34,300 bases of DNA, taken from positions 1 through 34,300 of the forward strand of contig JAAYTC010000077.1 in assembly GCA_012518155.1 (NCBI GenBank), read 5' to 3'. This DNA comes from Bacteroidales bacterium. Lineage in GTDB: Bacteria; Bacteroidota; Bacteroidia; Bacteroidales; Dysgonomonadaceae. The notes under the pieces are model-generated. The model saw only the letters and a list, made by a program, of their open reading frames with translations. It was not told the origin of the DNA and searched no databases. The translations under genes were made by a program, and so were the position numbers. Position 1 is the stretch's first letter, and every line of letters begins with the position of its first letter. This document shows positions 1,877 through 9,105 of the stretch, piece by piece.

Positions 1877-3325
1877 CTATTGCTTACTGCTGTCGTCGCT
1901 ATCAGCTTCATTTACAGGGGTGTTTTCTGTTTCCTCTGTCGCGTCAAGCGTCTCTTCTTTTTCTTCAGTTTCATTGCCTTCATCACTATCTGATTCGGGC
2001 ACAGCAACCACTTCCATCTCTTCGGTTTCGCTGACATCTTCAATGTCGATATCGTCGACATCATGAACCTCCTCGTCTTCAAACTCGAATCGAAGGATCG
2101 CCATCACCTCATCTACCGTAGATTCTTCAAGATCAGCTTCACGAATAATCCGTTCACGGCTGGTTTGAAGTACATTTTTGGCGGTGGAGCAGCCGATCTT
2201 TTTGAGCTGATCGATCACCCAACCATCGATTTCGTCGCGAAACTCGTCCAAGTAGATATCCTCCTCGTCAACGTCGTCGATATCACGAAATACCTCAATG
2301 TTGTATCCCGTAAGCATAGAAGCCAGTTTGATATTAGCTCCTCCTTTCCCGATAGCTAGTGATACCTCTTCGGGGTTCAGAAATACTTCAGTCCGTTGCT
2401 CCTCCTCCTTCACGGTGATGGAGTTGATACGGGCGGGACTTAACGCACGCTGAATAAAAAGCGTGGTATTATTCGTGTAGTTGATTACATCAATATTCTC
2501 GTTGCGAAGCTCACGGACGATGCCATGGATACGAAACCCTTTCATCCCCACGCAAGCACCTACCGGGTCGATGCGGTCGTCGTACGCCTCTACCGCTACC
2601 TTTGCACGCTCACCGGGAATACGAGCAATTCCCTTGATGGTAATTAGCCCGTCGGCAATCTCCGGAATCTCCTGCTCAAAGAGCCGCTCCAAAAAGACCG
2701 GTGATGTACGCGAAAGAATAATCCTCGGGTTATTGTTTTTATTTTCTACCCGTGCTACTACCGCGCGAACATGCTCTCCTTTGCGGAAAAAATCGCTCGG
2801 TATTTGTTCTGTCTTGGGCAATATAAGCTCGTTATGCTCATCGTCGAGCAGCAGCATCTCTTTTTTCCATACCTGGTACACTTCACCCGATACGATCTCT
2901 CCAACCTTCTCTTTGTAAGTGTTGAAAAGGTTGTCTTTCTCCAGTTCCAGAATCTTCGACGCGAGAGTTTGGCGAAGGTTGAGAATGGTGCGGCGCCCGA
3001 AATGCTCGAGCGAAACCTCATCGGTCACCTCTTCACCTACTTCGAAATCGTCGTCGATCTTTAGTGCTTCAGAGAGAGTAATCTCCAAGTTGGGATCTTC
3101 CAGTTCATCGTCTTCCACGATCACCCGGTTACGCCATATCTCCAAATCGCCCTTGTCGGGGTTGATGATGATGTCGTAATTTTCGTCGGTTCCGTTGGTT
3201 TTCGAAATCACGTTACGGAATGCTTCCTCAAGAACACTGATAAGGGTAGCTTTATCAATATTCTTCAGCTCGTTGAATTCCGAAAATGTATCTATGAGAC
3301 TTATGGTTTCTTTCTTCTTGCCCAT
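1877..3325 (-). CDS. nusA: Transcription termination/antitermination factor NusA
   Basis: NusA binds RNA polymerase and nascent RNA and modulates pausing, intrinsic termination and antitermination. The 482-residue protein has an N-terminal polymerase-binding domain (about 1-130), an S1 domain (about 135-205) and two KH domains. KH1 carries VGMKGFRIHGIVREL and KH2 carries AIGKGGANIKLAS, the GxxG loops that contact RNA. A short helical region follows (GCSTAKNVLQTSRERI), then an extremely acidic tail from about residue 400 to the end (runs of D/E with S/T). The E. coli-type pair of C-terminal acidic repeats is not obvious. It starts 3 nt after the rimP stop and lies 57 nt before infB, so the three are surely cotranscribed. 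It ends in TAG, showing that amber is an ordinary stop in this genome. Confidence 0.97.
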   Translation of the reverse strand: MGKKKETISLIDTFSEFNELKNIDKATLISVLEEAFRNVISKTNGTDENYDIIINPDKGDLEIWRNRVIVEDDELEDPNLEITLSEALKIDDDFEVGEEVTDEVSLEHFGRRTILNLRQTLASKILELEKDNLFNTYKEKVGEIVSGEVYQVWKKEMLLLDDEHNELILPKTEQIPSDFFRKGEHVRAVVARVENKNNNPRIILSRTSPVFLERLFEQEIPEIADGLITIKGIARIPGERAKVAVEAYDDRIDPVGACVGMKGFRIHGIVRELRNENIDVINYTNNTTLFIQRALSPARINSITVKEEEQRTEVFLNPEEVSLAIGKGGANIKLASMLTGYNIEVFRDIDDVDEEDIYLDEFRDEIDGWVIDQLKKIGCSTAKNVLQTSRERIIREADLEESTVDEVMAILRFEFEDEEVHDVDDIDIEDVSETEEMEVVAVPESDSDEGNETEEKEETLDATEETENTPVNEADSDDSSKQ

Positions 3326-3328
3326 ATG

Positions 3329-3796
3329 TTATTTGAATCTTATAAGATATTTTGTATACTTTACTTCATCGAACATGTAACGGACGCGATCCGTTACTTC
3401 CACTTTTCGTTTGGCACCTTCCGGTTTCACTTTTTTCGTGATGGAGAGGGTGAATCCTTCATTGTCCGACGATTCAAGGATGCCCGTGAGCTTTACACCC
3501 TTCTTGTTGAGCACCTCTACCTCTTCCCCTTCATGTTTCCTATACTGACGCGGTGTTTTGAAGGGCGACGTGAGCCCTACCGAGGTGACGGTCAATTCAA
3601 AATCTTCCGTATCCCGATCGAGGATCGATTCCAAGTGTCGGCTCAAGGCTGCACAGTCGTTAATGTCCACTCCCTCGTCGTTGTCGATCTCAATGGTGAT
3701 CACGTTACCGCTGCCCACCAGAACATCCACCAAGTAGTTTGGCGAATCTTGCAAGTACGCCTCCGCGAGGTCGATGAGCGTTTTTTTATCGATCAT
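3329..3796 (-). CDS. rimP: Ribosome maturation factor RimP
   Basis: RimP assists maturation of the 30S subunit. With the start at 3796 the protein is 155 residues, beginning MIDKKTLIDLAEAYL, which matches the family's usual beginning in Bacteroidetes. The N-terminal alpha/beta domain contains NVITIEIDNDEGVDINDC and SRHLESILDRD. The C-terminal Sm-like barrel contains KGVKLTGILESSDNEGFTLSI and ends YTKYLIRFK. The frame is open upstream to 3862 (extra Met codons at 3862 and 3826), but that extension runs through a terminator-like hairpin and lies almost on the predicted transcription start. I therefore chose 3796. It is the first gene of rimP-nusA-infB, the order seen in many bacteria. Confidence 0.92.
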   Translation of the reverse strand: MIDKKTLIDLAEAYLQDSPNYLVDVLVGSGNVITIEIDNDEGVDINDCAALSRHLESILDRDTEDFELTVTSVGLTSPFKTPRQYRKHEGEEVEVLNKKGVKLTGILESSDNEGFTLSITKKVKPEGAKRKVEVTDRVRYMFDEVKYTKYLIRFK

Positions 3797-3830
3797 TGGA
3801 ATGAGAAAATGAATAAAATCTACCATGAAT

Positions 3831-3858
3831 AAAAAAGGAAGCGGTGTTTCCTGCTTCC
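3831..3858 (-). terminator. Terminator-like hairpin in the rimP leader
   Basis: Read on the minus strand, GGAAGC (3858-3853) and GCTTCC (3842-3837) form a 6-bp stem with a 10-nt loop, followed directly by six T (3836-3831). That is the layout of an intrinsic terminator. An outer pair, ATGAAT/ATTCAT, at 3866-3861 and 3830-3825 could form an alternative, longer structure enclosing the T run. It sits about 10 nt downstream of the expected start of transcription from the promoter at 3875-3905 and 34 nt upstream of the rimP ATG. It could therefore be an attenuator of rimP-nusA-infB, the end of the upstream peptidase/inhibitor transcript, or both. The stem is modest. Confidence 0.6.
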
Positions 3859-3874
3859 CCATTCATTTCGAGTA

Positions 3875-3905
3875 CAAAGATATTGTTTTCAAACGGATTC
3901 ACAAA
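3875..3905 (-). promoter_or_regulatory. Bacteroidetes-type promoter for rimP-nusA-infB
   Basis: On the minus strand TTTG (3905-3902) is followed after 19 nt by TATCTTTG (3882-3875). This matches the Bacteroidetes sigma-ABfr consensus (TTTG, about 19-21 nt, TAnnTTTG). Transcription should start near 3868, about 70 nt upstream of rimP. Confidence 0.65.
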
Positions 3906-3959
3906 ATGTTTGCTCCTTTTTTTGCATCCCCCCGCGATGCGACTTAACACTCTTCTCCT

Positions 3960-4205
3960 TCAAATATCGTTGTTCGATTGAATATCTGCGTCGGGGGGGA
4001 GGATGGTTGTCTGTTTCTCTTCGGTGAGGGCAGCGATTTCTTTGTGCTCGCGAATGCGGGTAATGGCCTCTTCCGCGGCTTCTCCAATAATCACTCCAAA
4101 TTCGTATAATTGGGTTATAATCAACCCTTCCGATCGTAGGTCGTCAGCAACCACGTACAGTTGATCGAGATAATATTCTTCTATTGTAATTACAACTCGT
4201 TTCAT
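3960..4205 (-). CDS. Small protein resembling a free-standing I9 peptidase propeptide/inhibitor
   Basis: This 81-residue protein has no signal peptide. Its pattern is that of the beta-alpha-beta propeptide fold of inhibitor family I9: strand KRVVITIEE, helix LDQLYVVADDLRSEGL, strand ITQLYEFGVIIGEA, helix AITRIREH, strand IAALTEEKQTTI. The tail LPPDADIQ is extended and could lie in a protease cleft, as I9 C-termini do. It is encoded 35 nt downstream of a subtilisin-family gene on the same strand. From family knowledge, I9 domains fold and inhibit their cognate S8 enzyme and occasionally occur as separate proteins. That this one inhibits or chaperones its neighbour is inference. It ends about 100 nt before the leader hairpin of rimP. 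Confidence 0.7.
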   Translation of the reverse strand: MKRVVITIEEYYLDQLYVVADDLRSEGLIITQLYEFGVIIGEAAEEAITRIREHKEIAALTEEKQTTILPPDADIQSNNDI

Positions 4206-4240: not shown

Positions 4241-5413
4241 TTATAAGGGTGCTTTGCAGAGGCCGGCTCCTACATCTTTACCGTTCAGGGGAAGAGGTTT
4301 GGCACCGGCCGTCAGCAGCTGTTCTATTTCGGCAGGGTCTGCGCCGGGATGTTTTTCGCGTAAAAGCGCGAGGATACCCGCCACGTGTGGTGTGGCCATG
4401 CTGGTTCCCGATAAGAGGCGGTACCTTGTCGGCATGGGGTAGGAGGAATAGATTTCGACCCCGGGCCCCGCGATGTCTACCTTCCCCGAAGGGTTAATTT
4501 CCCGGTTTGAGAAGTTGGCCACCTTCATCTCTTCATCGAGGGCCGCCACCGCCAGAATGGAAGGGCAGTCGGCGGGGCTTCCCACCGGGCTGAGTCGGTC
4601 CTCGGCGCGGTTGCTTTCGTTGCCGGCAGCGGCCACAAGAACGGCACCCCTTGAACGGGCAAACCGTGCCGCCCTTTCGTACGCGATATCATAGACTTGG
4701 CCGGGAAGCACGGGGGTGCCGAGTGATAAGGAGATTACCTTACATTCGTTTTTGGCAGCCCAGGTTATACCGTTGAGGACCCAAGATTGCGCGCCGCTAC
4801 CGGAGTCACTCAATACTTTTCCCGCGAAGATATGGGCATGGGTGGCTACCCCATAGCGCAGCCTATTCTCGTTGCTGCTTCCACACGCTACACCAATGCA
4901 ATGCGTGCCGTGCCCGTGTTGGTCCCGAACTGTTTCGTCGGGCACGAACGAAGAGGTGGTGATCATCCGCCCCTTGTAGTCGGGGTGATTAGTATCGAAT
5001 CCGGTATCCAGTATAGCAACACGGACTCCCAGTCCGGTATATTTTGAATGGATAGCACCGCTCGCGCGAATGCCCCAAGTGGAAGGCTCTTCCAGTTCAA
5101 CCGGGATATCGTCGGGCACATAAACCACTTTTTCGGGAGCGATAAAATAGTCGGTATCGAGCGTTTGCAGTATATACACCCGTTCATCTTCTACCCCCAG
5201 GAGGGTAATCCCCAACTCGTTGTATAAAAGGGCATCTGCTCCATGAATATTGTTCTCGTTAATTCCTTCTGTCGTGAAATCAGACGTCTCCGCCACCGTC
5301 AGTCCCCATTTCGACTCCAATATTTTTTTGGTCTCGCTTGGGCGGGTTTGGCCCTCCCGATGGATAAGAAAGTGCCGGCCGGTATAGCCGCATCCAATTA
5401 TTGGAGGTTTCAT
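4241..5413 (-). CDS. Subtilisin-like serine peptidase (S8 family), probably cytoplasmic
   Basis: This 390-residue protein has the full subtilase triad: Asp136 (AILDTGFD), His168 (HGHGTHCIG) and Ser338 (SGTSMATPHVAG), with the oxyanion Asn265 (AAAGNESN). Residues 1-110 form an N-terminal extension with KKILESKWGLTVAET and YILQTLDTDYFIAPEKVVYV, possibly a pro-like or substrate-gating domain. Then comes WGIRASGAIHSKYTG, typical of the start of a mature S8 domain. No signal peptide or membrane segment is visible (the N-terminus is MKPPIIGCGYTGRHF), so it probably acts inside the cell. The gene lies 49 nt downstream of a membrane-protein gene and 35 nt upstream of the I9-like gene, all on the minus strand with no obvious promoter between them. 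Substrate unknown. Confidence 0.93.
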   Translation of the reverse strand: MKPPIIGCGYTGRHFLIHREGQTRPSETKKILESKWGLTVAETSDFTTEGINENNIHGADALLYNELGITLLGVEDERVYILQTLDTDYFIAPEKVVYVPDDIPVELEEPSTWGIRASGAIHSKYTGLGVRVAILDTGFDTNHPDYKGRMITTSSFVPDETVRDQHGHGTHCIGVACGSSNENRLRYGVATHAHIFAGKVLSDSGSGAQSWVLNGITWAAKNECKVISLSLGTPVLPGQVYDIAYERAARFARSRGAVLVAAAGNESNRAEDRLSPVGSPADCPSILAVAALDEEMKVANFSNREINPSGKVDIAGPGVEIYSSYPMPTRYRLLSGTSMATPHVAGILALLREKHPGADPAEIEQLLTAGAKPLPLNGKDVGAGLCKAPL

Positions 5414-8941: not shown

Positions 8942-8987
8942 CATCGTGTTTTTCATGGTATTAGATTTAAGGTTAACAATGAAGATT

Positions 8988-9017
8988 GGTTGTCGTGAGA
9001 CAACCTTTCCTTTTTTA
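8988..9017 (+). terminator. Intrinsic terminator downstream of rlmI
   Basis: GGTTGTC (8988-8994), loop GTGA, GACAACC (8999-9005): a perfect 7-bp stem with a tetraloop, followed by TTTCCTTTTTT. It lies 163 nt after the rlmI stop and 125 nt before the GSCFA gene. It could end the rlmI operon, end a short RNA started at about 8948, or act as an attenuator for the next gene. Confidence 0.8.
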
Positions 9018-9105
9018 TATACCTTCCATTCATAATATTCTTCGCGGCTTCCACTTCCAAATAACTATAATCGCGATTCCATTTTAGTCTCCGCCCCTTT
9101 ATTGT

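Follow-up and report, generated by a model that had tools for sequence, protein, structure and literature searches.

The window, i.e. the whole 34,300-nt stretch of DNA that was analysed, comes from a Bacteroidales bacterium and forms one contig of its draft genome (2.57 Mb). Its minus strand carries an operon in the order rimP, nusA, infB, in which the rimP start codon is the ATG at 3796. A leaderless rimP starting from one of two upstream in-frame ATGs, at 3862 or at 3826 (just past the T run), was considered and rejected, since the RimP matches of relatives begin at the ATG at 3796 and the frame is lost in relatives. Further upstream on the same strand, at 3960-4205 and 4241-5413, lies an S8 subtilase followed by an 81-aa ORF without family match, a pair that about half of the same-genus loci also have ahead of rimP. 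The features between the promoter and infB are collected in Table 1.

Table 1 Features of the rimP-nusA-infB operon and its leader in the window
Feature	Position	Strand	Basis
-33 box TTTG of the rimP operon promoter	3902-3905	-	Sequence; invariant in 37/37 same-genus loci
Promoter spacer, exactly 19 nt	3883-3901	-	Conserved in the genus, single-copy at rimP
-7 box TATCTTTG	3875-3882	-	Sequence; invariant in 37/37 same-genus loci
Expected transcription start region	3866-3870	-	Predicted from Bacteroidota promoter geometry and the -7 box
ATGAAT, 5' half of outer pair	3861-3866	-	Potential pairing with 3825-3830
Putative terminator hairpin GGGAAGC-AGG-AAACA-CC-GCTTCC-T	3836-3859	-	Fold; a single copy per genome, located at rimP; compensatory base changes in the class
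T6 run, predicted 3' end of short terminated RNA	3831-3836	-	Sequence; four T positions invariant in the genus
ATTCAT, 3' half of outer pair, past the T run	3825-3830	-	Sequence
rimP, first operon gene (155 aa)	3329-3796	-	NCBIfam NF002531 RimP, E 1.9e-51
nusA (482 aa)	1877-3325	-	TIGR01953 NusA, E 3.2e-120; NusA_N and KH domains
infB (IF-2), cut by the contig end	2-1819	-	TIGR00487 IF-2, E 5e-52; open-ended ORF

An earlier note on this DNA had described a consensus promoter TTTG-N19-TATCTTTG upstream of rimP-nusA-infB, followed shortly after the expected start by a 6-bp hairpin and six T. All of these elements are present on the minus strand. The promoter, of the Bacteroidota type, occupies 3905-3875, and the hairpin with its T run, GGGAAGC-AGGAAACACC-GCTTCC-T6, occupies 3859-3831 and lies 34 nt ahead of rimP. 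The hairpin begins 15 nt past the -7 box, from which it is separated by the stretch TACTCGAAATGAATG. Its arms, GGGAAGC (3859-3853) and GCTTCC(T) (3842-3836), form six Watson-Crick pairs and a basal G-U pair, with two more G-C pairs beyond a bulged A and a loop of AAACA. The segment 3870-3831 folds with a predicted -12.3 kcal/mol (z -3.0), and none of 200 shuffled sequences folded as well. A scan of 1.2 kb with a simple terminator pattern was not significant (2 found, 1.6 expected), and it is thus the comparative evidence that carries the case.

When all 39 genomes of Proteiniphilum were searched with the pattern GGGAAGC-N5..16-GCTTCC-N-TTT, a single hairpin, at rimP, was found in each of the 37 genomes that have rimP in the assembly; one of these 37 had one additional, unrelated match to the pattern, and the two genomes without a hairpin match also lacked rimP in their assemblies. 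Records carrying the same hairpin belonged to Proteiniphilum and Fermentimonas (family Dysgonomonadaceae). On reading the upstream regions, a hairpin with a T run was seen to precede rimP in all 90 family loci, and an equivalent element was found in 39 of the 40 loci that represent the order's other families and in all 40 loci sampled at class level. The 27 loci from beyond the class all had a hairpin and T run at the same place upstream of the RimP domain, in unrelated sequences (stems such as GTGGGG/CCCCAC, CGCCCC/GGGCG and ACGCCCG/CGGGCGT). Automatic scoring, in which a hairpin of -8 kcal/mol or lower with a T-rich tail was sought within 110 nt of the start codon, gave 86/90 (96 %) for the family, 38/40 (95 %) for the rest of the order and 40/40 (100 %) for the class, while dinucleotide shuffles passed in 1.1, 5 and 3.3 % of cases, respectively. 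In the family loci missed by this scoring the element was located by eye further upstream; of the two misses in the order, one was of the same kind (L232) and the other had no element (L240). The comparison of hairpin and T run among relatives, which the earlier note had suggested, thus found position, structure and U run kept throughout the phylum sample.

A 400-kb section of one complete relative contained 142 genes with a free upstream region. A terminator-like site was found within 110 nt in 12 of them, and only three of the twelve, rimP being one, had a -7 box upstream of that hairpin. The -7 box ended at a median of 14-21 nt ahead of the hairpin in family, order and class loci. Judged from these comparisons, the hairpin and T run are not a product of chance, and nearly all rimP genes examined in the phylum keep a predicted stop signal in the same place.

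The stem itself has been rewritten between lineages. The Dysgonomonadaceae stems are, depending on the genus, GGAGGC/GCUUCC, GGAAGC/GCUUCC or GGGAGC/GCUCC with pairing kept, a series that points to step-by-step change by way of G-U pairs. In most of the class's other families the stem is GGGGAC...GUCCCC or a near form. An unanchored alignment of 92 hairpins (MAFFT and RNAalifold) misaligned the arms because of the variable loop length and was replaced by a sequence-anchored test, in which 56 class and order loci were anchored only on the core GGGGRC...GYCCCC to avoid circularity. The positions outside the core were paired more often than after swapping: position -1 in 55 of 56 loci compared to 50.3 (sd 0.7), and position -2 in 50 of 56 compared to 28.3 (sd 2.9), with GC, AT, TA, CG and GT all used. 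The predicted structure, its position and the U run are preserved while the hairpin sequence changes between lineages.

The flanks of the hairpin behaved differently from the stem. The outer ATGAAT/ATTCAT pair had been proposed in the earlier note as a competing structure, a suggestion that did not hold up: over 49 family loci the flanks paired no better than swapped ones (mean paired score 4.03 compared to 3.91, 89 of 500 swaps being as good), and the 3' half is transcribed past the T run and cannot therefore act before the termination decision. The pair could at most reshape the read-through mRNA. As a 6-bp pair it was found only in the window and its three closest relatives (L002-L004); in these three it reads ATGAAC/GTTCAT, i.e. 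there is one covarying pair, confined to the closest clade. No conserved antiterminator structure able to form ahead of the terminator was found in the 49 family loci. Counted from the predicted start, the RNA ahead of the hairpin is just some 10 nt long, which leaves no room for an antiterminator, and readthrough must therefore be set by a protein factor or by intrinsic leakiness.

We consider it probable (roughly 0.7) that the element is a promoter-proximal transcription attenuator of rimP-nusA-infB, with readthrough falling as NusA rises. We infer that transcription starts at about 3868 and that the nascent RNA would fold into GGGAAGC...GCUUCC after approximately 30 nt; at the U6 run, part of the polymerases would release RNAs of about 38-40 nt, while the remainder would continue into rimP-nusA-infB. 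As the T run ends 38-40 nt past the predicted start, every polymerase from the rimP promoter must meet the terminator. NusA, possibly together with NusG, would set the efficiency by promoting pausing and hairpin formation, so that high NusA would give less readthrough and low NusA more, a negative feedback without an RNA antiterminator. A point on the other side is that, with a hairpin of about -11 to -12 kcal/mol and six T, the element would be a fairly good terminator and might need little help from NusA. We are aware of no experiment in a Bacteroidota species that addressed intrinsic termination stimulated by NusA.

The hairpin could also be read as an ordinary terminator for transcripts of the upstream S8 peptidase and the 81-aa ORF, which would lie downstream of the rimP promoter by chance. 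Both ORFs are on the same strand in the window, no other terminator is evident there between 3960 and the promoter, and the gene pair recurs in roughly half of the relatives. However, at least 11 (about a dozen) same-genus loci keep the hairpin although their upstream gene is divergent, so that the hairpin is not the terminator of the upstream gene and could at most end such transcripts incidentally. Every family examined moreover showed the constant order of -7 box, hairpin and rimP, which means that the operon promoter always reads into the hairpin, and we regard this explanation as very improbable. Even less credit can be given to the hairpin acting as a 5' stabiliser or a translation-control element of the mRNA and not as a terminator: its closeness to the 5' end would fit, as would the outer pair, which could extend the hairpin in the window, but a stabiliser would not need a T run, and the T run shows the same strict conservation as the stem in the genus and follows the hairpin in every class.

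A different question is what the attenuator senses. It might respond to NusG, RimP, IF-2, translation or growth rate instead of NusA, or the terminator might simply fix a constant low output. The operon opens with rimP, whose product is a ribosome assembly factor that interacts with RNA; in B. subtilis many intrinsic terminators are driven by NusG, either by itself or jointly with NusA (PMC8060035), and no antiterminator is conserved. We nevertheless think a sensor other than NusA unlikely, as the operon encodes NusA itself and in B. subtilis NusA is established to regulate itself through termination in the leader (PMC12288461), while the variation of hairpin sequence and loop between classes counts against a sequence-specific RNA binder such as RimP. 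By analogy, NusA autoregulation appears to be the best-supported reading, the same architecture having been shown or inferred in B. subtilis, Streptococcus agalactiae and E. coli (PMC12288461, PMC4448216, PMC6511841).

These systems resemble the present one to different degrees. B. subtilis NusA regulates its own expression by stimulating termination in its leader (PMC12288461), and the terminator likewise lies in the 5' leader of the nusA operon; NusA dependence has been demonstrated there, whereas it is proposed here, and the leader is about 180 nt (PMC2965389) compared to approximately 75 nt in the window. In the S. agalactiae rimP-nusA-infB leader (gbs0413-gbs0418), RNA ends 31 nt past the start, and short and long RNAs arise from one start (PMC4448216). 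Termination would be similarly early in the window, but S. agalactiae belongs to the Firmicutes and its termination was measured by RNA-seq, whereas ours is a prediction. In E. coli, for which the earlier note had mentioned termination sites in the rimP-nusA-infB leader, there are indeed two terminators upstream of rimP in addition to NusA feedback (PMC6511841).

The closest description is the rimP-leader attenuator of Naville and Gautheret (2010, PMC2965389), an intrinsic terminator with a G-rich 5' arm, a C-rich 3' arm and a T run just before rimP. As there, no antiterminator is visible, NusA is the proposed regulator, and the distance to the start codon falls within their 4-130 nt. Their core motif GGGc(...)gCCC is, in contrast, not found in the GGGAAGC...GCUUCCU of the window, although the Bacteroidia core GGGGAC...GUCCCC comes close; Bacteroidetes are absent from the main text of that paper. 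The window element lies between the operon promoter and rimP and combines a stable predicted hairpin with an immediate U run, both conserved in relatives. Its position and architecture place it among the leader intrinsic terminators of rimP-nusA-infB, and it would work like the rimP-leader attenuators.

Rfam contains a cis element named after the same gene (RF01770, rimP). It gave no match at 3700-4000 up to an E value of 10, and its best score in the genome, 17.8 compared to a gathering threshold of 47, was at another place. No known Rfam element was found at the rimP leader; sub-threshold matches to other Rfam families in relatives were taken as chance. Since the Rfam rimP family misses the element, annotation pipelines leave it unmarked. 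From the same phylum, a structured 5' element at rimP, also without Rfam match, is described for Flavobacterium psychrophilum in the accessible part of the report (PMC9723704); there it is presented as a structured leader and not as a terminator, and we liken the two by description only. No published description of a rimP-leader terminator as an attenuator in Bacteroidota was found, and neither rimP nor nusA is mentioned in the main texts of the transcriptome papers on Bacteroides thetaiotaomicron.

Control of this type has been described in Bacillus and Streptococcus, and NusA feedback has been elucidated in Firmicutes and E. coli; a member from Bacteroidota would be new. That practically all Bacteroidota rimP loci examined have a predicted leader terminator, of which the place and U run are retained while the hairpin is rewritten, argues that the feedback is ancient. 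Little work has been done on the termination machinery of this phylum, for which the element may also offer a reporter of NusA activity that is present in one copy and at one gene.

The promoter has a second conserved layer in the genus. The spacer and its flank (an A tract, then CAAACATTTTGTGAATCCGTTTGAAAACAATATCTTTG; 3883-3924, minus strand) are nearly invariant in the 37 same-genus rimP loci, with a mean identity of 0.96 over -31 to -9 compared to 0.59 upstream, and full or near-full matches occurred only at rimP in the genomes searched. The spacer is as conserved in the genus as the promoter boxes, which sigma recognition does not explain, and an operator is thus possible. This conservation was absent in Dysgonomonas-like genera. 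We tentatively suggest, while regarding it as rather doubtful, that in Proteiniphilum the region reaching from the A tract at -48 to the last base of the T run is a regulator with two layers, in which a protein would act on initiation at a rimP-specific operator in the spacer TGAATCCGTTTGAAAACAA and the hairpin would set readthrough via NusA; the hairpin layer would then be kept across Bacteroidota in lineage-specific sequences, and NusA feedback would be ancestral to the phylum.

Five Proteiniphilum loci (L016, L018, L023, L026 and L030) have 70-110 nt inserted between the terminator and rimP, and in two of them (L016 and L023) a second TATCTTTG promoter follows the terminator, which would bypass attenuation. 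With such extra sequence, and sometimes a second promoter, past the terminator in four or five species, not every species would depend on readthrough. Elsewhere in the window, 8946-9019 on the plus strand matches BTncRNA_FopS (RF04319, 77.6 bits), an sRNA family of Bacteroidetes.
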